This document shows, piece after piece, positions 53,748-62,897 of a stretch of DNA of 64,000 nt (positions are counted from its first letter, which is position 1; each line of letters starts with the position of its first letter). The DNA is from Actinotalea endophytica (GTDB lineage Bacteria; Actinomycetota; Actinomycetes; Actinomycetales; Cellulomonadaceae): contig NZ_JAOVZU010000010.1 in assembly GCF_025717005.1 (NCBI RefSeq), positions 124,001 through 188,000 of the forward strand. Direction: 5' to 3'. Position numbers and translations under genes: made by a program. Below the pieces are notes generated by a model, which saw only the letters and a list, made by a program, of their open reading frames with translations, searched no databases and was not told the DNA's origin.

Positions 53748-54932
53748 CACCGCAGAAGGCCGCCGTTCCCGCACCAGGGCGCCGGTGACCAGTGCGACGC
53801 CGGCCGCGACCGCGAGCGCGAGCACCGGCGACGCCGTGACGAGCCAGCCACCACCTGCGTCGCCGAGCACCCCTCCGACACCCATCGCGGCTCCCATCCA
53901 GCCGAACGCCTCGGTGGCCCGAGAGCCCTCGGCGACCTGCGAGAGCCGGCCGAACAGCACGGTCCCGACCGGAGCGATCGTGGTCCCGTAGACGAGTGCC
54001 GAGACAGCCAGCAGCACGACGCCCCCGGCTGCCGCCGCCAGCCCGATCGCGGCGACCCCGCAGGCGAGCGCGACGAACCGGCGGGGCAGGGCCGAGACCC
54101 GCGGCCTTGCCCCGAACCAGAGGCCACCGAGGACGGAGCCGAGGCTGGACAGACCGAGGAGGATGCCCGCGCCGGCGCTCGCGGACGGACCGCTCGCGGC
54201 CGCGACGATGGCCACGGCGGCGACCGAGAGCACGAGGAGGAAGCCGGCCGCGCCGACCATGAGACGCAGCACCTCCGGCGTCGCCAGTAGCTCGCGCCGT
54301 CCGGACCCACCGTCGGGCGTGCACTCGCCGTCGGCCTCCCGCGGGGCGACCCGCGCCACCGCGACCAGGTACCCGGCCACTCCGACGACGGTCGCCCCGG
54401 CAGCGACCACGAGGGCCGCCCGCGGCCCGGCCAGCCACGCCGCGGCGGCGGCGACCACCGGTCCGGCGATGAAGACGACCTCCTGGACCGTCGACTCGAG
54501 GGCGAAGGCCGTCAGGCGGAGCTCCTCGCCCGCGAGCCTCGGCAACGTCGACCGGAACGCCGGGGTCAGCGGCGGGGTGAGGAGACCTGCCACGACCGCC
54601 ACCGGCACGACCGGGCCGACGCCGCCCGCGAGGGCGAGGACCGCACCCGCGTGACCGGCGGCGGTGAGCGAGAGCACCGCGGAGTGCCCGAACCGGTCGG
54701 CGAGGCGGGCCGCGAGGGGCGCGGCGACGATCCCGCCTGCGCCGTACGCGGCGAGCACCCAGCCTGCGTCGGCATAGCTGCCGTCCGTGGTGACGACGAG
54801 GATCACCCCGAAGGCGATCATCGACTCGTGCATCCGGCCGACCAGCGACGCGACGAGAGCGAGGGCGAGCGACGGCCTGCGCAGCACGGCGAGATAGCGG
54901 TCCGCCGCCGAGCGGAGGTCCGCCGATCTCAT
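53745..54932 (-). CDS. MFS transporter, 395 aa
   Basis: About twelve membrane helices. ATG at 54932 (MRSADLRSAADRYLAVLRRP) overlaps the GH31 stop (ATGA). AARLADRFGHSAVLSLTAAG after TM2 is the MFS loop. It closes the alpha-glucoside operon, so a sugar uptake or efflux role is plausible. It resembles the MFS at 50436 in its LESTxxEVVF helix, suggesting two paralogues in this region. Confidence 0.87.
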   Translation of the reverse strand: MRSADLRSAADRYLAVLRRPSLALALVASLVGRMHESMIAFGVILVVTTDGSYADAGWVLAAYGAGGIVAAPLAARLADRFGHSAVLSLTAAGHAGAVLALAGGVGPVVPVAVVAGLLTPPLTPAFRSTLPRLAGEELRLTAFALESTVQEVVFIAGPVVAAAAAWLAGPRAALVVAAGATVVGVAGYLVAVARVAPREADGECTPDGGSGRRELLATPEVLRLMVGAAGFLLVLSVAAVAIVAAASGPSASAGAGILLGLSSLGSVLGGLWFGARPRVSALPRRFVALACGVAAIGLAAAAGGVVLLAVSALVYGTTIAPVGTVLFGRLSQVAEGSRATEAFGWMGAAMGVGGVLGDAGGGWLVTASPVLALAVAAGVALVTGALVRERRPSAV

Positions 54933-57178
54933 GCTTCGAAGACCGACCGCATCCTCGGCCAGCTCTCGGCGCGGCACCACACCGGGATCAGGTCCGGAGG
55001 CGTCGGACGCTCGACGACCCTGCCGCCCGGCACGGCCTCCCCGCTCCACACGTCGACCCAGTCCCCCTCGGGCAGCGCCGTCGGCCACGTCTCGGCGCCC
55101 GGTCGGGTCACCGGGTGGACCAGGAGGTCGTCGCCGAGGCAGTACTGCCCCGGGAACTGCCAGAACTGTTCCTCGCGCGGATGGTCCACGAACATGGCGC
55201 GCATCAGAGGTCGTGCGGTCGCGATGGCGGCCCGGGCCTCCTCCGCCAGGTACGGCACGAGCCGCTCGCGCAGGTGGGCGTAGCGGCGAAAGACCTCGAC
55301 CACCTCGGGTGCGTCGTGGGTCTGGGCCACGTTCCACGGCGTGCGGTCGCGCAACGGGGGCCGGTGGTGGTGGAACTCGGAGTGGTACTGCATCACCGGC
55401 ATGAACGTCGCCGCGGCGGTCGCCCTGAGGTAGAGCTCGGGCTCCGGCACCGGTCCCGAGAACCCCGCGAGGTCCCATCCCCAGTAGACGATCCCGCACG
55501 CCGAGGCGGTCAGGCCGGCCGTGACGGAGTGCTCGAACGCCGCCCACGTCGAGTCCTCGTCCCCGGCCCAGACGATCCCGTGTGCCTGGGACCCGGTGAA
55601 GCCCGCGCGCGAGAACGTGACCGGGGCCTTGCCGCACGACCGCATCAGGTCGCCGAACGCGCGCGCGAAGTGCACCGGGTTGAGGTTGTTCGCCTCGTCA
55701 CCGCGACGTCCGTCGGCGTAGCGCAGGTCGTGGCCCCACGCGTGCTCGCCGCCGTCGGTCTTGAAGCCGTCGACGTCCAGGTCCGCCACCAGGTAGCGGC
55801 GGTACTCGGTCCACGCGGCCCGGCCTTCAGGCGTCGAGAGATCGGGCATCAGGGCACGCGGGAACCACCACCCACGGTTGCGGTAGGCGGTGCCGTCCGC
55901 CTCGCGCACCACGTGGCCGTCGCGGACGAGCGCGTCACCGTCGGCGAGCACCTGGACGGTCTGGTCGGGGCGCCACGGCGTGTCGTCGCGGGCGATGGTC
56001 TCGTCGGTCTTGAGCAGCGGGATCTGCCAGAGCACGACCTTGATACCGCGCTCGTGCATGTCGGCCACCCAGCCCGCCGGGTCCGGCCACGCGCCGTCGG
56101 CCGGGAACGTGAAGTCCTCGATCCGGCGCGGGGAGCCGTCCGCGTGCGTCGTCCACCGTGCGCCGCCGAACTCCGTGATCCCGAGCTCGTCGCTCCACGC
56201 CTCGATCACGACGACACCCACCGGGATGTCGAGCTCGCGGTGCGTGTCCATCCGGCTCGTGGCGATCGCCTGGGTGTTCCACTCGTTGCCGGAGGCCCAC
56301 AGCCGCAGCACCCAGTCGGGGAGCTCCTCCGCCCGCCCGACCTCGGCCACGAACGCGTCCAGCACCTCGCGCGGGTCGCCGCGGTAGATCGCGACGTCGA
56401 GCTCCTCGTCGGCCCGACCGCCGAGAGCCGCCTCGACGACGAGGCGGCCGGGATCGCTCGATCCGACGTCGTACCAGGTCCGGCGGGTCGTTCGGACGTG
56501 GAAGCCCCAGCCGTCCCCACCGACCACGTGCGCGAACGGCATCGGCAGGTAGGTGCGGCCGTGCTCGCCCTGCGCCTTGTACTGCTCGAAGACGACCGCG
56601 TCGAGCGTCCGGCCCCGCTGGTCGAGCGCGTCGAAGCGCTCGCCGAAGCCGACCACGTGCTCGGCGGGCTCGAGCCGCAGCGCGAAGCGCACCCGGTGCG
56701 CGCCGGTGTCGTCGCACAGCCAGCTCACCGACCCCGGCACCAGGCGGGGGTCCTCCTCGTGGCCACCGATCCGGAGCGTCCCTCCGTCGGGACGCCAGCC
56801 GGCGGCGCCGACCTCGTACCAGGGCGTGCTCTCGCCACCGGCCCAGAAGCGGTAGCGGTGCGCGCCCTCGGCGAGCGGGGCGGTCGTGACGGCCCAGCCG
56901 CCGTCGTCGGCGAGCTGTGCGGCCTGCGCCTCGGCGAGGTGCCCCTCACCACCGGCGAGGGCGGCCGCGTCGGCCGACGGCCCGGCCGGCGCGAGCTCGA
57001 GCCACTCGACGTCACCCGCGGGCCCGTGCCACTCGCAGCGGACCGGACCGTCGACGGGGCCGTCCACGATCACGCCGAGCCTGACCCGCTCGCCCGCCTC
57101 GGGCACCACCGGTGTGCGTTGGTCGGCGGAGGCGGCGTAGGGGTGCTCGATCCCGTAGGGGCGGTGCAGCAACGTCAT
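54929..57178 (-). CDS. GH31 alpha-glycosidase (alpha-glucosidase/alpha-xylosidase type)
   Basis: A 749-aa protein (MTLLHRPYGIEHPYAASADQ), no signal peptide. N-terminal beta-sandwich domains, then the (beta/alpha)8 barrel with the nucleophile aspartate in DVDGFKTDGGEHAW (about 470) and acid/base in WAGDEDSTW (about 540), the two GH31 signatures. Retaining enzyme acting on alpha-glucosides or alpha-xylosides; neighbours favour alpha-glucosides. Overlaps the GH15 gene by ATGA and the MFS gene by ATGA. Confidence 0.93.
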   Translation of the reverse strand: MTLLHRPYGIEHPYAASADQRTPVVPEAGERVRLGVIVDGPVDGPVRCEWHGPAGDVEWLELAPAGPSADAAALAGGEGHLAEAQAAQLADDGGWAVTTAPLAEGAHRYRFWAGGESTPWYEVGAAGWRPDGGTLRIGGHEEDPRLVPGSVSWLCDDTGAHRVRFALRLEPAEHVVGFGERFDALDQRGRTLDAVVFEQYKAQGEHGRTYLPMPFAHVVGGDGWGFHVRTTRRTWYDVGSSDPGRLVVEAALGGRADEELDVAIYRGDPREVLDAFVAEVGRAEELPDWVLRLWASGNEWNTQAIATSRMDTHRELDIPVGVVVIEAWSDELGITEFGGARWTTHADGSPRRIEDFTFPADGAWPDPAGWVADMHERGIKVVLWQIPLLKTDETIARDDTPWRPDQTVQVLADGDALVRDGHVVREADGTAYRNRGWWFPRALMPDLSTPEGRAAWTEYRRYLVADLDVDGFKTDGGEHAWGHDLRYADGRRGDEANNLNPVHFARAFGDLMRSCGKAPVTFSRAGFTGSQAHGIVWAGDEDSTWAAFEHSVTAGLTASACGIVYWGWDLAGFSGPVPEPELYLRATAAATFMPVMQYHSEFHHHRPPLRDRTPWNVAQTHDAPEVVEVFRRYAHLRERLVPYLAEEARAAIATARPLMRAMFVDHPREEQFWQFPGQYCLGDDLLVHPVTRPGAETWPTALPEGDWVDVWSGEAVPGGRVVERPTPPDLIPVWCRAESWPRMRSVFEA

Positions 57179-58323
57179 CGTGGCTCGTCCTCGGAGAGTG
57201 CGGTGGTCAGGGTCAGCACCATGCCGTGCGACCACAGCAACGGGGTCGCGACCGGACCCCAGCGATGCAGCCACTCGTCGCGGTGCTCGGGGTGCAGCAG
57301 GTGGTCGGGAACCTGCTCGGGCAGGTCGCCCGTCGGCGTGGCCGTCGCCAACGCCCAGTCGAGGTGCCGTTCGGCGCCCGCGCGGTCCCCCGCGGCGAGC
57401 AGGTTCCAGCCGAGCAGGCAGGACAGCAGCGGCCACTGGCCGCCGCCGTAGAACACGTCCGCCGCGAAGCGGTGGACGCCACCGTCGACGTCCAGGTCGC
57501 GGCTCACGGCGTCGAGCGTCGCGCGCGCGAGGTCCGAGCCCAGCGGCGCGAGGCCGAACGGCACCACGCACGCCGCGAGCGACGCGTCGACCTGGTCGGA
57601 CCCGAACCACTTGGCGAGGTGGACGTCGGCGGGGTCCGCAGCGCGCCCCCTCGCGAGGCCGTCGGTCAGGACGCGGGACCTGAGCCCGGCCGCCGCCGTG
57701 GCTGCGCGCTCGGCACGCGCCGGGTCCAGCGTCCCGCCCGCGACGGCTGCGAGCAGCCCGGCCCGCACGGCGCCGAGGGTGGAGGTGTGCACCTGCTCGA
57801 CGTGCTCCTCCCACCAGTCGTAGCAGGGCCGGTCACCCACGGCGAGCAGGTAGTCGGTCGCGAGGTCGATCGCGGGGGCCCAGCGGGCGAGGTGCACCCC
57901 GTGCCGGCGGGCGTGCTCGGTGACCGCCCACAGCCACATCCCGTACCCGTCCGTCTGGAAGTCCCACCACGGGTCGGAACCGTCGGCTCCGTCCAGGGTG
58001 AACCGGGTGGGGAGCATCGCCGACACCGGCACCTCACGCCCCGCGGCGACGTCCGCGACGATCGACCCGACGCGGTCGCTGCGATCGACCAGCACGCCGG
58101 CCGCCCAGTCGTGGAACGCCTCGGCCGAGCCGACGTCACCCCAGCGCGACATGCCGTCGGCGACGAACGAGCCGTCCCGCAGCCACGCGTACCCGCGGTA
58201 GGCCGAGAACGTGGGCGATGCGGGGTAGGCGCCGCTCCGGTGCTGGTGCGCCGCGATCACGGCGTGGCTCCGGGCGGCCTGCTCGGCCCGGGTGGCCGCA
58301 CGGGCCGGGCGTGGGCGGGTCAT
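57175..58323 (-). CDS. GH15 isomaltose-glucohydrolase-like enzyme
   Basis: A 382-aa (alpha/alpha)6-barrel glucoamylase-family protein (MTRPRPARAATRAEQAARSH; GAGGAG 6 nt upstream). Motifs: GYAWLRDGSFVADGMSRWG near the N-terminus; CYDWWEEHVEQVHTSTLGAV, with the likely general acid Glu; GGGQWPLLSCLLGW and DLPEQVPDHLLHPEH with the likely general base. It resembles Kribbella isomaltose glucohydrolase more than long starch glucoamylases. No signal peptide, so cytoplasmic: it would hydrolyse imported isomaltose-type sugars. As sequenced, its frame is open into the upstream binding-protein gene. Confidence 0.85.
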   Translation of the reverse strand: MTRPRPARAATRAEQAARSHAVIAAHQHRSGAYPASPTFSAYRGYAWLRDGSFVADGMSRWGDVGSAEAFHDWAAGVLVDRSDRVGSIVADVAAGREVPVSAMLPTRFTLDGADGSDPWWDFQTDGYGMWLWAVTEHARRHGVHLARWAPAIDLATDYLLAVGDRPCYDWWEEHVEQVHTSTLGAVRAGLLAAVAGGTLDPARAERAATAAAGLRSRVLTDGLARGRAADPADVHLAKWFGSDQVDASLAACVVPFGLAPLGSDLARATLDAVSRDLDVDGGVHRFAADVFYGGGQWPLLSCLLGWNLLAAGDRAGAERHLDWALATATPTGDLPEQVPDHLLHPEHRDEWLHRWGPVATPLLWSHGMVLTLTTALSEDEPR

Positions 58324-59700
58324 CTCAGGATCTCCTCGGGAGTGCGGTCGGGGCGCCGGCCCCGGGCTCGGCGGGGTGCGCGAGCCCGGGGGCGGGGGCC
58401 GGGGGGGGAGCCCGGCCCGCCGGCAGCCGGCCAGCAGAGCGTTGATCTGCGACGCGGCCTCGTCGAGCGCCTCGGCCGCCATCATCCGGCCGGCAGCGGC
58501 CTCGGTCAGCTGGGCGTTGATGATGTCCACCATCTCGTTCTGCTTGTCACCGACCGTGGGCGGCAGCGCGACGTGCTCGAGCGAGTCGAAGACCGCCTGG
58601 CGGTTCGCCGGGTCACCCTTCTCGAGGTAGCTCGAGAGCACGCTCTCGTCCGAGATCGGCGGGAGCTCCCAGCCCGCGTCGAGGCGGACCTGGGCGGCGT
58701 CCTGCGACCCGGAGAGGAAGGCCGCGAAGGCCGTCGCCTCGGTGACATGGTCACTGGTGGCCGAGACCCCCAGAGCGTTGGAGAACATGGCCGAGGCCTG
58801 CGTGGTGCTGCCCGGCTCCACGGCGATGTCCCAGTTCAGGTCCGCGTCCGCGGCCGCGCCGAACATCCAGATCCCGGTGTGCCACATGGCGAGCTTGCCG
58901 CCGGTGAACAGGGTGGTGTCGAAGTCGGGTGTGCCGGCGCCCTGCTCGGCCGTCGGCATGGTCGCCCCGCTCTTGCCGATCAGCCATTCGGCGGCCTCGA
59001 TCCCGGCCGGGCTGTCGAACGCGACGCTCGTGCCGTCGTCGGACAGGAACTGCGCGCCGTTCTGGACCAGGGCCTTGTAGAACTCGTAGTAGCTGATCGG
59101 CTGGTAGTCACCCCACACGCCGGCGCCCGCATCCGTCAGCTTCTCCGCCGCCGCCTGCTCGTCGGCCCACGTCCAGGAGGACGTCGGGTAGTCGAGGCCC
59201 GCGGCGTCGAAGAGGTCCTTGTTGTAGAAGAGCACGACGTCCGAGAACGAGCTCGGCAGGGCGTACTGCGTGCCGTCCGTCTGGTAGGCCTCGAGCAGCG
59301 AGGGCGTGTAGACCGAGGCGTCGAACCCGTCGAGCGGCGCGAGCACGCCGGACGCCTGGTAGGCGCCGTAGCTCGCGTACTCGAGGTCGAAGACGTCTGC
59401 GACGGTGCCGGCGGCGAGGTCGGTCTGCAGCGCCGTGCCGTAGTCGGCGTACGGCAGGGTCGTGACGTCGACCGTCACCCCGGGGTTGGCGGCCTCGAAG
59501 GCCGACACGATCGTCGCGAGGTTGTCCTCGTTGCCGCCGTTCGAGATGAAGTTCGTGTAGGTGATCGTGACGTCCTGCGCCACCGCGTCACCGGTCTGGT
59601 CCCCGCCCGCGCTCGGGTCATCGGTGGAGCCGGACGAGCACGCTGTGAGCGTGAGGGCGATCGCGCCCACCGCGAGCGCTGCCGGGATACGGCGGTTCAT
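58324..59700 (-). CDS. ABC sugar-binding lipoprotein, running into GH15 without a stop
   Basis: ATG at 59700 (AAGGAG 6 nt upstream). Lipobox: LTLTACSSG (Cys about 21). The body is a family-1 carbohydrate-binding protein (FEAANPGVTVDVTTLPYADY; LPSSFSDVVLFYNKDLFDAA; LFTGGKLAMWHTGIWMFGAA) and ends naturally near ...QINALLAG. No stop codon follows: an Arg/Pro-rich tail reads across a hairpin and a run of eight G (58401-58408) and enters GH15 in frame. A lost stop or an indel in the homopolymer is the likely cause. Confidence 0.85.
58360..58391 (-). terminator. Intercistronic hairpin between binding protein and GH15
   Basis: CCCCGGGCTCG (58360-58370) pairs with CGAGCCCGGGG (58381-58391), 10-nt loop. 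In ABC sugar operons such hairpins after the binding-protein gene stabilise its message or reduce downstream expression. Confidence 0.65.
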
Positions 59701-59759: not shown

Positions 59760-60665
59760 CTACTTGAGGCCCGTGCTGGCCACGCCTTGCACGACGTAGC
59801 GCTGCGCGAGCACGTAGAGGGCGAGCATCGGGAGCACGCTCACGACGGATCCGGCCATGACGACGTCCCACTGCGTCGTGTACTGGCCCTGCAAGGACTG
59901 CAGGGCCACCGGGAACGTCTGGAGCTCGGGTGAGCGCAGGATGATCAGCGGCCACAGGAAGCTGTTCCAGCTCTGCATGAACGCGAAGACCGCGAGGGTC
60001 GCCAGCGCCGGGCGGATGTTCGGCAGCACGATCCTGGTGAAGATCCGCAGGTGGCCGGCGCCGTCCAGGGTCGCGGCCTCGTCGAGCTCGCGCGGCACCT
60101 GGTTCACGGCCTGGCGGAGCAGGAAGACGGCGAACGCGGTCGAGACCGTGGGCAGCAGCGCGCCGAGGTAGCTGTCGATCAGGCCGAGGTACTTCATCTC
60201 CACGAACAGCGGGACGATCAGCACCTGGAGCGGGATCATCATCGTCGCGAGGTACACGGCGAAGATCACGTCGCGGCCTCGGAACTCCAGCCGGCTGAAG
60301 GCGTACGCCGCCATCGCCCCCGTGGTCATCTGCAGCAGCGTGGACACCACCGCGAGCCCGAGGCTGTTCAGCGTCACCCGGGCGAACGGCAGGTGCGTGA
60401 ACAGCTCCAGGTAGGCCGACATCGACGGGTCCGTGGGGACGAACGACGGCGTGGCGCTCAGACCGGCGCCCGGGCTGATGGAGGTGATCACCGCCCAGAA
60501 GAACGGGAAGAGCATCACCAGGGCGCCGAGCACGACCACGACGTGCAGCAGCACCGAGCGGACGTCGAACCGCGGGTTCCGGGGACGCCGCGGCGTCGCG
60601 GTGCCGGGCCGGGCCGCGCCCGTCGGGGCGAGACCGGGGGCGGAGGAGGTGGCGGTCTCAGGCAT
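59760..60665 (-). CDS. ABC transporter permease (MalG type)
   Basis: A 301-aa permease ([20 protein letters not shown]). Six helices; the EAA loop DEAATLDGAGHLRIFTRIVL (about 210-229) contacts the ATPase. The C-terminal RYVVQGVASTGLK end is typical of MalG-like sugar permeases. It overlaps the previous permease by 8 nt. No ATPase gene is present, so a shared MsiK-like ATPase elsewhere probably energises the system (inference from actinobacterial sugar transport). Confidence 0.93.
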   Translation of the reverse strand: MPETATSSAPGLAPTGAARPGTATPRRPRNPRFDVRSVLLHVVVVLGALVMLFPFFWAVITSISPGAGLSATPSFVPTDPSMSAYLELFTHLPFARVTLNSLGLAVVSTLLQMTTGAMAAYAFSRLEFRGRDVIFAVYLATMMIPLQVLIVPLFVEMKYLGLIDSYLGALLPTVSTAFAVFLLRQAVNQVPRELDEAATLDGAGHLRIFTRIVLPNIRPALATLAVFAFMQSWNSFLWPLIILRSPELQTFPVALQSLQGQYTTQWDVVMAGSVVSVLPMLALYVLAQRYVVQGVASTGLK

Positions 60666-61635
60666 AGGTGACCCACCGCCGCTGCCCACGGATCTGGACG
60701 AGGGTGATCGCCAGCACGACGGCGAAGAGGAGCCAGGACAACGCGGAGGCGGTGCCGGCCTCCCCGTAGCGGAACGCCAGGGAGTGGATCCGCAGGACGA
60801 CCACGTCGCTCGAGCCGTTGGGCCCGCCACCGGTCATCGCGTACACCTGGTCGAACACCTGGAAGCCGTTGATCAGGGAGATCACCACGACGAAGAACGT
60901 CGACGGCGACAGCAGCGGCAGCACCACGCTCCACAACCGGCGCCACCACCCCGCGCCGTCCACCCGCGCGGCCTCGAGGATGTCGGCCGGGATGGCCTGG
61001 AGCCCGGCGAGCAGGATCACCATCACGAAGCCGAGGTCCTTCCACGCCGAGGCGAGGACGACCGAGGCCATCGACCACGCCGGGTCGGTCCACCAGCCGG
61101 GTCCCTGGATGCCGATCTGCGCGAGGGTCCAGTTGACGATCCCGACGCTCGGGTTGAGCAGCCAGCGCCAGACGAGCGCGACCACGATCCAGCTGGTCAC
61201 CACCGGGAGGAAGTAGACGCCGCGCAGCACCGTCCTGCCCTTGAGCGCCGTGTTGAGCGCGAGGGCCAGCCCGAGGCCGCCGACGTAGACCAGCGGCAGG
61301 TAGCCGGCGAGGTAGCCGAGCGTGTGGCCGAAGGCGGCGAGGGTCGCCGGGTCACGGACCAGCTCGGTGTAGTTGCCCAGCCCGACCCAGCTCATCGGCG
61401 AGATCAGGTTCCACTCGTGCAGGCTGATCCAGCCCGCCCCGGCCATCGGCAGGAGGACGAAGAGCGCGAGCGGCAGCGCGCTCGGCAGCAAGAACGCGAG
61501 CGCCCACCAGCGGTCCCTGCGGCGCGCTGCCGACCGCCCGGTGCGGCGTCCGTGGCCGGTCGGTGCGCGGCGTGCCGGGGAGGGCCCGTCCGCTCGTCCC
61601 GCGGCGCGGCCCACCGGCGTCGTGAGGTTGCTCAT
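60658..61635 (-). CDS. ABC transporter permease (MalF type)
   Basis: A 325-aa permease whose basic N-terminus (about 1-42) is followed by six helices ([20 protein letters not shown]). EAA loop [20 protein letters not shown] (about 222-241). ATG at 61635 overlaps the ROK stop (ATGA), so regulator and transporter are co-translated. Works with the next gene as a heterodimer. Confidence 0.93.
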
Positions 61636-62834
61636 GCCTGCCCCGTGGCCGCGTGCAGCCGCTCACGGACCAGGGATCCCTGGTCGCCCGTGGCTCCGGT
61701 CTGGTCGAACGGCGACGCCAGGACGAGCGCCGCAGCGCCGAGCGCCCACTTGTCCTCGTCCCAGGAGTCGATCAGGTACGACGTGCCCCGGCGGCTGGGC
61801 ATCAGGTGGCGACGGAACGACGGGGCGAAGCCCGCCTCCCAGTGCCGCCACGCGGAGATGCCCTCACCGAGCATGACGACGACCTCGGGATCGAGCGTGT
61901 GGACGACGCCCGCGAGAGCACGGCCCAGCATCGCGCCCGCCTCGGCGAGCACCTCCGCGGCCACGGCGTCGCCCGCGTCCGCGGCGGCGTGCAGGGCCTC
62001 GACACCGGCGCCCTCGCCGATCACGCGGCGCTCGACGGCGGTGCGCTCGAGTGCCGCCTGGCCGATGTGTGCCTCGAGGCAGCCTCGCGACCCGCAGGCG
62101 CACTCCGGCCCGTCGACGGACATGGGGATGTGGCCGATCTCTCCGGCGCCGCCGAACGCGCCGCGGTAGAGCGCACCGTCGATCACGATCCCGCACCCGA
62201 TCCCGCGGCCGATGGTGGCGACGAGGTAGGAACCGTGCTCGCGGCCGATGCCGTAGACCCGCTCGGCGACCGCGAGGGTGTTCACGTCGTTCTCGACGAG
62301 CACCGGCACGCCGAGCGCGGCGCGCAGGGAGCGCCCGACCGGCGCCTCGGACCAGCCGAGCGTCGGTGCCTCGACGCTGCCCGAGGCCTGGCCGTCGACG
62401 GCACCGGGGATGCCGACGCCGACGCCCAGGAGCTGGCCCTCGTAGTCGCGCACGGCGGCACGCAGCAGGTTGCCGAGCGCGTCGAGGGCGTCCGGGGCGT
62501 CCGGGTCGAAGGGGTGCACGCTCGAGCGGTCGACCGATCCGTCGAGCGCCACGTGCACGACGGCGACGTGGTCGGCCGTGACCTTGGCGCCGATCGCGCC
62601 GAGCCCGGTGGACACCAGGCCCAGGAGCCGCGCGGGTCGCCCGCCGAGCGACGGCACCTGGTCGAGCTCGCGGACGAGGCCGCGGGCGAGCAGGGCCTTG
62701 GTGGTCTGCGTGACGGTGGCCGGGCTGATCGCGAGCTCGCGGGCGATCTGCGCCCGGGACAGCGGACCGCGCGTTCCGAGGAGACCGAGGACCGACGACG
62801 GGACGAGGTCGCCGCGCGCGGGCTGTGCAGGCAC
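61632..62834 (-). CDS. ROK-family sugar repressor
   Basis: A 400-aa regulator. Start placed at the third GTG of a GTG triplet (62834) because AGGAG lies 5 nt upstream; longer forms would cover the promoter. Winged-helix HTH ([20 protein letters not shown], about 28-47), then a ROK kinase-like domain with [15 protein letters not shown], the HIPM...[12 protein letters not shown] zinc/ROK signature (about 232-255). It heads the operon and would release it on binding an alpha-glucoside. Confidence 0.93.
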
Positions 62835-62854
62835 CACCACTCCTTTGTTCGTGG

Positions 62855-62897
62855 CTTTATTTAGTCCCAAAGTATCTATCGGGTCGCCGGACGTCAA
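62855..62897 (-). promoter_or_regulatory. ROK operon promoter and candidate operator
   Basis: Leftward TTGACG (62897-62892), 17-bp spacer, TACTTT (62874-62869). The AT-rich CTTTATTTAGTCCCAAAG (62855-62872), much lower in G+C than its surroundings, covers the -10 and start site and has the CTTT...AAAG ends of a partial dyad, suiting a ROK operator. The ribosome site AAAGGAG follows at 62840-62846. Confidence 0.6.

Follow-up and report, generated by a model that had tools for sequence, protein, structure and literature searches.

The nearest solved relatives of the two proteins considered here are the isomaltose glucohydrolase from Kribbella flavida (KfIG; PDB 5Z3A), the closest PDB match of an enzyme of glycoside hydrolase family 15 (GH15), and the binding protein Lmo0181 from Listeria (PDB 5F7V), closest by sequence to a sugar-binding lipoprotein. 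The solved chain of KfIG consists of 405 residues and is without a solute-binding protein (SBP) domain, and the substrate of Lmo0181 has been described as cycloalternan (PMC8603345). Their counterparts are encoded side by side in a 64,000-nucleotide stretch of DNA from Actinotalea endophytica (assembly GCF_025717005.1, contig NZ_JAOVZU010000010.1, positions 124,001 to 188,000 of the forward strand), which was located in the source genome on the contig designated C2 and is hereafter called the window, positions being counted from its first letter unless a contig is named. As the initial annotation had reported, the minus strand reads there without a stop from 59700 to 57175, i.e. over 841 codons, this frame containing a binding protein (Pfam SBP_bac_8/SBP_bac_1) and then a GH15 domain. 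If true, the join would fuse an exported protein that binds sugars for import to a hydrolase working inside the cell. It is, nevertheless, likely that the join is an error of the consensus sequence and that the organism has two separate genes; in other words, two ordinary adjacent genes for sugar use probably only appear to be joined, and the SBP–GH15 fusion is probably not a real feature.

Concerning the junction itself, the elements described in the initial annotation were all found in place—the perfect 11-bp hairpin at 58360-58391, the run of eight G at 58401-58408, and the GH15 gene's own ATG at 58323 with its ribosome site GAGGAGA (58331-58337, minus strand). The Arg/Pro tail, which had been described as unlike either domain, is likewise different from both genes: it comprises 34 codons with a GC content by codon position of 0.85/0.88/0.85, in comparison with 0.64/0.49/0.96 for the binding protein and 0.76/0.56/0.94 for the GH15 gene, and therefore does not have a coding-type look. 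The linker of the supposed fusion thus lacks a coding-type codon composition.

One line of evidence for the above conclusion is the end of the binding protein in its relatives. These were obtained by a search with the open frame in one genome from each of 84,980 species, the best 80 of 180 being used. Of the 80 binding proteins, 78 stop no more than two residues away from window residue 425, i.e. from the motif INALLAG, the exceptions being L099, whose match is interrupted by an in-frame stop, and L103, where the stop is absent. In L099 that stop lies well ahead of the end of the binding-protein match, the gene being either broken or affected by an error. In Actinotalea lenta, which is the closest relative (identities of 85% and 84%), CTGGCCGGC is followed by TGA, in the window by TGC, so that the A. 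lenta binding protein ends as INALLAG followed by a stop (GGC-TGA against GGC-TGC); the site of the conserved stop is thus the TGC at 58425-58423 of the minus strand, changed either by a substitution of A by C (TGA to TGC) or by a dropped A. The in-frame join was not seen in any of the 75 loci, among the 80, that hold both genes. A second set, obtained by a search with GH15 only among 59 genomes, yielded 11 loci with an adjoining SBP gene (six of which belong to the 80 as well); each of the 11 has a stop between the two genes, and none shows the join. The initial annotation had suggested checking orthologues for a stop after INALLAG, which proved to be the appropriate test, and had named a sharing of the join by orthologues as the observation that would speak against an error; the join is absent from close relatives.

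The kind of error has, however, to be revised. The initial annotation favoured a homopolymer indel or sequencing error, reasoning that the removal or addition of one base in the G run would end the binding protein at one of two TGA codons near the GH15 start. A sequencing or assembly error is indeed the likeliest cause, and a one-base change of the run does reach those codons (58322-58320 and 58327-58325). A binding protein ending there would, however, retain a tail of more than 30 residues, an end seen in none of the 78 loci, which terminate near INALLAG, ahead of the run. Since the INALLAG stop precedes both the hairpin and the G run, its loss sits at 58425-58423 and not in the run, which begins 14 bases beyond the lost codon; consequently, neither seven nor nine G would give the conserved end. 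An indel in the eight-G run, highly improbable on these grounds, was rejected as the cause in view of the conserved stop upstream of it.

The sequence following the lost stop is unusual in its composition. In the stretch 58384-58422, where the composition counts and a comparison with similar patches cast suspicion on the consensus, 38 of the 39 bases are G or C, and 18 of the 21 bases at 58388-58408, the eight-G run included, are G on the plus strand. The first 31 nt beyond the SBP stop position contain a single A or T, whereas the 78 orthologues (L099 and L103 excluded) have a median of eight and none has one or fewer. From the stop to the hairpin stem there are 31 nt in the window; the 40 loci that have a stem of at least 8 bp show a median of 12 nt, with a range of 3-34, and only one of them has a distance as long.

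Such patches recur across the assembly. They were counted in samples of 1.19 Mb from the source genome, 1.2 Mb from A. lenta and 0.4 Mb from a single-contig genome of the same genus (G017), all with a GC content of 72-73%. Places with at least 18 G or at least 18 C in 21 bases number 11 in the source genome (58388-58408 among them), two in A. lenta and none in G017, and nine of the other 10 in the source genome contain G or C runs of at least 10. Runs of at least eight G or C amount to 36, six and zero, respectively. Every N gap in the sample of the source genome (3/3) falls inside such a patch. In the clusters made of both bases (n = 7), G lies to the left of C in five, the reverse is seen in one and one is tied, G left of C being the order expected when reads arriving from either side end in G. 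Over whole genomes, overlapping matches to 12 consecutive G number 324 in the source genome; among the 18 other members of the genus only one (G011, with 445) exceeds this and eight have none. The locus is thus characterized by a local G/C-rich low complexity that is rare in comparable genomes, although a lone run of eight is not. One patch lies about 910 bases past the right end of the window (C2:188910-189013) and consists of G and C only, its G run and C runs being accompanied by an N gap; patches of the same kind are present at C15:45251, C15:339511, C12:159426, C12:192650 and C17:16846 of the same assembly, and the A. lenta assembly has one G-then-C patch (G007:C1:899472-899611).

Gene ends were also compared more generally between the two species. 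Among 75 pairs of orthologous coding-like frames from A. lenta and the source genome that could be aligned to the stop, 69 end no more than 10 residues apart and four extend by more than 20 codons, the binding protein being the only one extending more than 100 codons past the stop. Before the filter for codon composition, two of 83 pairs did so, the binding protein and one on contig C17 (140 codons), the latter being removed by the filter; a further pair on C2 (317 codons) was left uncounted, its end being unaligned. A smaller initial check had given three such extensions in 33 orthologue pairs. Internal stops were found in 12 of 104 pairs without the filter and in five of 93 with it, at least one of the 12 being an open reading frame antisense to a permease.

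The same gap is a trouble spot in other assemblies, too. In Microbacterium sp. ASV49 (L049:6263-6356), the SBP stop is followed by 23 G and then by 11 C, together with an N gap. Microbacterium sp. T2.11-28 (L103:6180-6215) shows 13 consecutive G and lacks the SBP stop, the binding protein continuing in a frame other than that of GH15. The missing stop beside the 13 G is a probable second artefact. Apart from L103, gap runs of at least seven were seen in only two of the 67 loci scored, namely in L049 and in L087, the latter having a C run of seven within a normal stem.

The events leading to the apparent join may be pictured as follows. The binding-protein gene would stop after INALLAG, at about 58423, and a gap of roughly 80-100 bases, comprising the ribosome site of GH15 as well as a strong hairpin, would separate it from the GH15 start at 58323. 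Short reads entering the hairpin would lose their signal and be called as G, the hairpin as the cause of this loss being what we infer; the consensus would then turn G/C-rich and drop the A of the TGA (a T read as G, or lost, on the plus strand). Because a sequence of G and C only cannot contain a stop codon, such a patch leaves the frame open, and the opened frame would by chance of phase meet that of GH15. A study on two-colour sequencing chemistry, which cannot separate G from an absent signal, describes poly-G tails where the loss of signal lasts and reports a T>G/A>C artefact for two-colour machines (PMC13218037). The direction of that artefact fits the change from TGA to TGC (TCA to GCA on the plus strand).

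Several points have to be set against an error of the consensus. The artefact described in PMC13218037 prefers the context NT[TG], which the plus-strand TCA does not match; it concerns low-frequency human calls and not assembled bacterial hairpins—hairpins are unmentioned in the passages on it—and it belongs to two-colour machines. The argument is drawn from the assembled consensus, and no second genome of the species is present among the 19 genomes of the genus. The patch at 58388-58408 is a mild one, with eight G and no N. Runs of at least seven are equally frequent in the samples of the source genome (54) and A. lenta (50), and a single run of 8-9 is all that is found at seven of the 16 places with runs of at least eight in the former and at three of the four in the latter. 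Lone runs of this length being common, eight G alone are weak evidence, and the case for an artefact is carried by the loss of the stop, the composition of the spacer and the 21-mer rich in G. Poly-G also occurs in other drafts and, to a lesser degree, in nine of 14 single-contig genomes (of the 59), these 14 having 0 to 58 matches to 12 consecutive G and five having none, so that some runs may be real. A coding-like frame crosses the patch at seven of the 11 places in the source genome, and at two of these seven (C15:139214 and C17:161845) the sequence may be genuine, either coding or antisense. Since a recount found lone runs of 8-9 to be common and one cluster to be tied, our confidence in an error was lowered slightly, remaining high.

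The explanation to be weighed most seriously against an error is a real and recent loss of the stop in this strain, by TGA to TGC or by a lost A, with some of the product, a lipoprotein of 841 residues with an external GH15 domain, made by reading on through the hairpin, and GH15 also made from its own start. The consensus has no stop and the window no N, a single-base change suffices, the start and ribosome site of GH15 are intact, and runs of 7-9 are found in A. lenta as well. Moreover, the gap is stop-free in frame in 43 of 52 relatives having GH15 in frame 0—a set biased to that frame—and, such gaps being common, a change of one base can bring the two genes together. A genuine loss would, however, have to coincide with one of only 11 G/C-rich places in 1.19 Mb, in a spacer whose A/T content is below that of all 78 orthologues and in a gap that contains long G runs in two further assemblies; the join has no parallel in the 75 two-gene loci, and it would place a presumably cytoplasmic enzyme outside the cell. 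We therefore regard a real stop-loss as unlikely, and slightly less likely still is its full consequence, a surface-tethered protein for both binding and hydrolysis, made of the SBP lipoprotein and the isomaltose glucohydrolase, with the free enzyme still produced.

The idea of a programmed readthrough or frameshift making an SBP–GH15 fusion throughout the family could draw on the recurrence of the SBP–GH15 order in many genera and on the presence of both a run and a hairpin in the gap here. The stop codons are, however, mixed (TGA 33, TAG 23 and TAA 11 in the 67 loci scored, 13 of the 80 having been dropped), as is the phase of GH15 (3, 2 and 6 in frames 0, 1 and 2 of the 11 loci of the GH15-only set), and gap runs are as rare as mentioned above. 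On account of the mixed stop codons and phases this mechanism was rejected, and it is the least credible of all those considered. That GH15 lies in frame 0 in 52 of 73 loci, an apparent excess, was set aside, since the loci had been found with the fused protein, which favours that frame; the GH15-only set gives 3/11. A narrow search of the literature found no fusion of an SBP with a glycoside hydrolase, although its absence from print is not claimed. With an error of the consensus as the preferred explanation, it should be pointed out that in GC-rich draft assemblies the stretches after genes can become a G/C-rich consensus, erase stops and yield false fusions; with seven of 11 patches crossed by a coding-like frame, two of them possibly genuine, surveys of fusions in such genomes should mask these patches.

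The genes themselves lie on the minus strand in the following order: ROK regulator, two permeases, binding protein, GH15 and a member of family GH31. The ROK-family regulator (61632-62897) is matched by Pfam PF00480 and by MarR-type models, and the two ATP-binding cassette (ABC) sugar permeases (60658-61635 and 59760-60656, the start of the latter being provisional) by PF00528. The gene of the sugar-binding lipoprotein (58426-59700) has 425 codons up to INALLAG, the end it shares with its relatives, and its product matches PF13416 (E 2.1e-32) and PF01547 (E 2.6e-32). The tetrapeptide LTAC at residues 18-21 is what we take to be the lipobox, the protein thus having both the SBP domain and the lipobox of a family 1/8 solute-binding lipoprotein. 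It matches Lmo0181 with E 1.3e-87 and may share its ligand; Lmo0181 is from Listeria, the relatives of the window protein being actinobacterial.

The GH15 gene with its own ATG (57175-58323; PF00723) probably encodes an enzyme similar to isomaltose glucohydrolase, its residues 13-376 aligning with KfIG (E 6.9e-141). It matches the wild-type chain at the motifs WWEEHVE and DLPEQVP and has both Glu that are Ala in two mutant PDB chains; presumably, these two Glu form the catalytic pair. The next gene, encoding a GH31 enzyme (54929-57178; PF01055 and PF21568), overlaps with its start the stop of GH15 (ATGA) and has an N-terminal domain similar to that of 1,3-alpha-isomaltosidase, which suggests a cycloalternan pathway. 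As judged from these similarities, the genes probably form an ordinary operon for the use of cycloalternan via isomaltose to glucose.

The intergenic hairpin (58360-58391, minus strand) has stem arms at 58391-58381 and 58370-58360, a loop of 10 nt and no T-run. The region 58320-58440 folds better than its dinucleotide shuffles (z -2.4), four of 200 shuffles folding as well as it does. Of 79 loci, 40 carry a perfect stem (8 bp or longer) no more than 70 nt beyond the SBP stop; before the SBP gene such a stem occurs in six of 80 loci and inside it in one of 80, the expectations from shuffling being 6%, 0.5% and 3%, respectively. Of 48 scorable gaps with a length of 40 nt or more, 37 have such a stem; a T-rich tail follows in one of the 40 stem-bearing loci. 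By analogy, the hairpin is possibly an mRNA-protecting element behind the SBP gene, which would shield the 3′ end of the binding-protein mRNA and give more binding protein than permease or enzyme, as for malE. Differential decay of malE-malF mRNA has been described for the malEFG operon of Escherichia coli, together with four other ABC operons (PMC5927463). In both cases an import operon has an RNA structure beside the gene for its substrate-binding subunit, here without a T-run, the difference being that the SBP gene stands here after the permeases. Most of the protective structures in PMC5927463 lie within coding regions, whereas the present hairpins lie in the gap. The sequence of the hairpin varies, its position after the SBP stop being kept in many actinobacterial genera.

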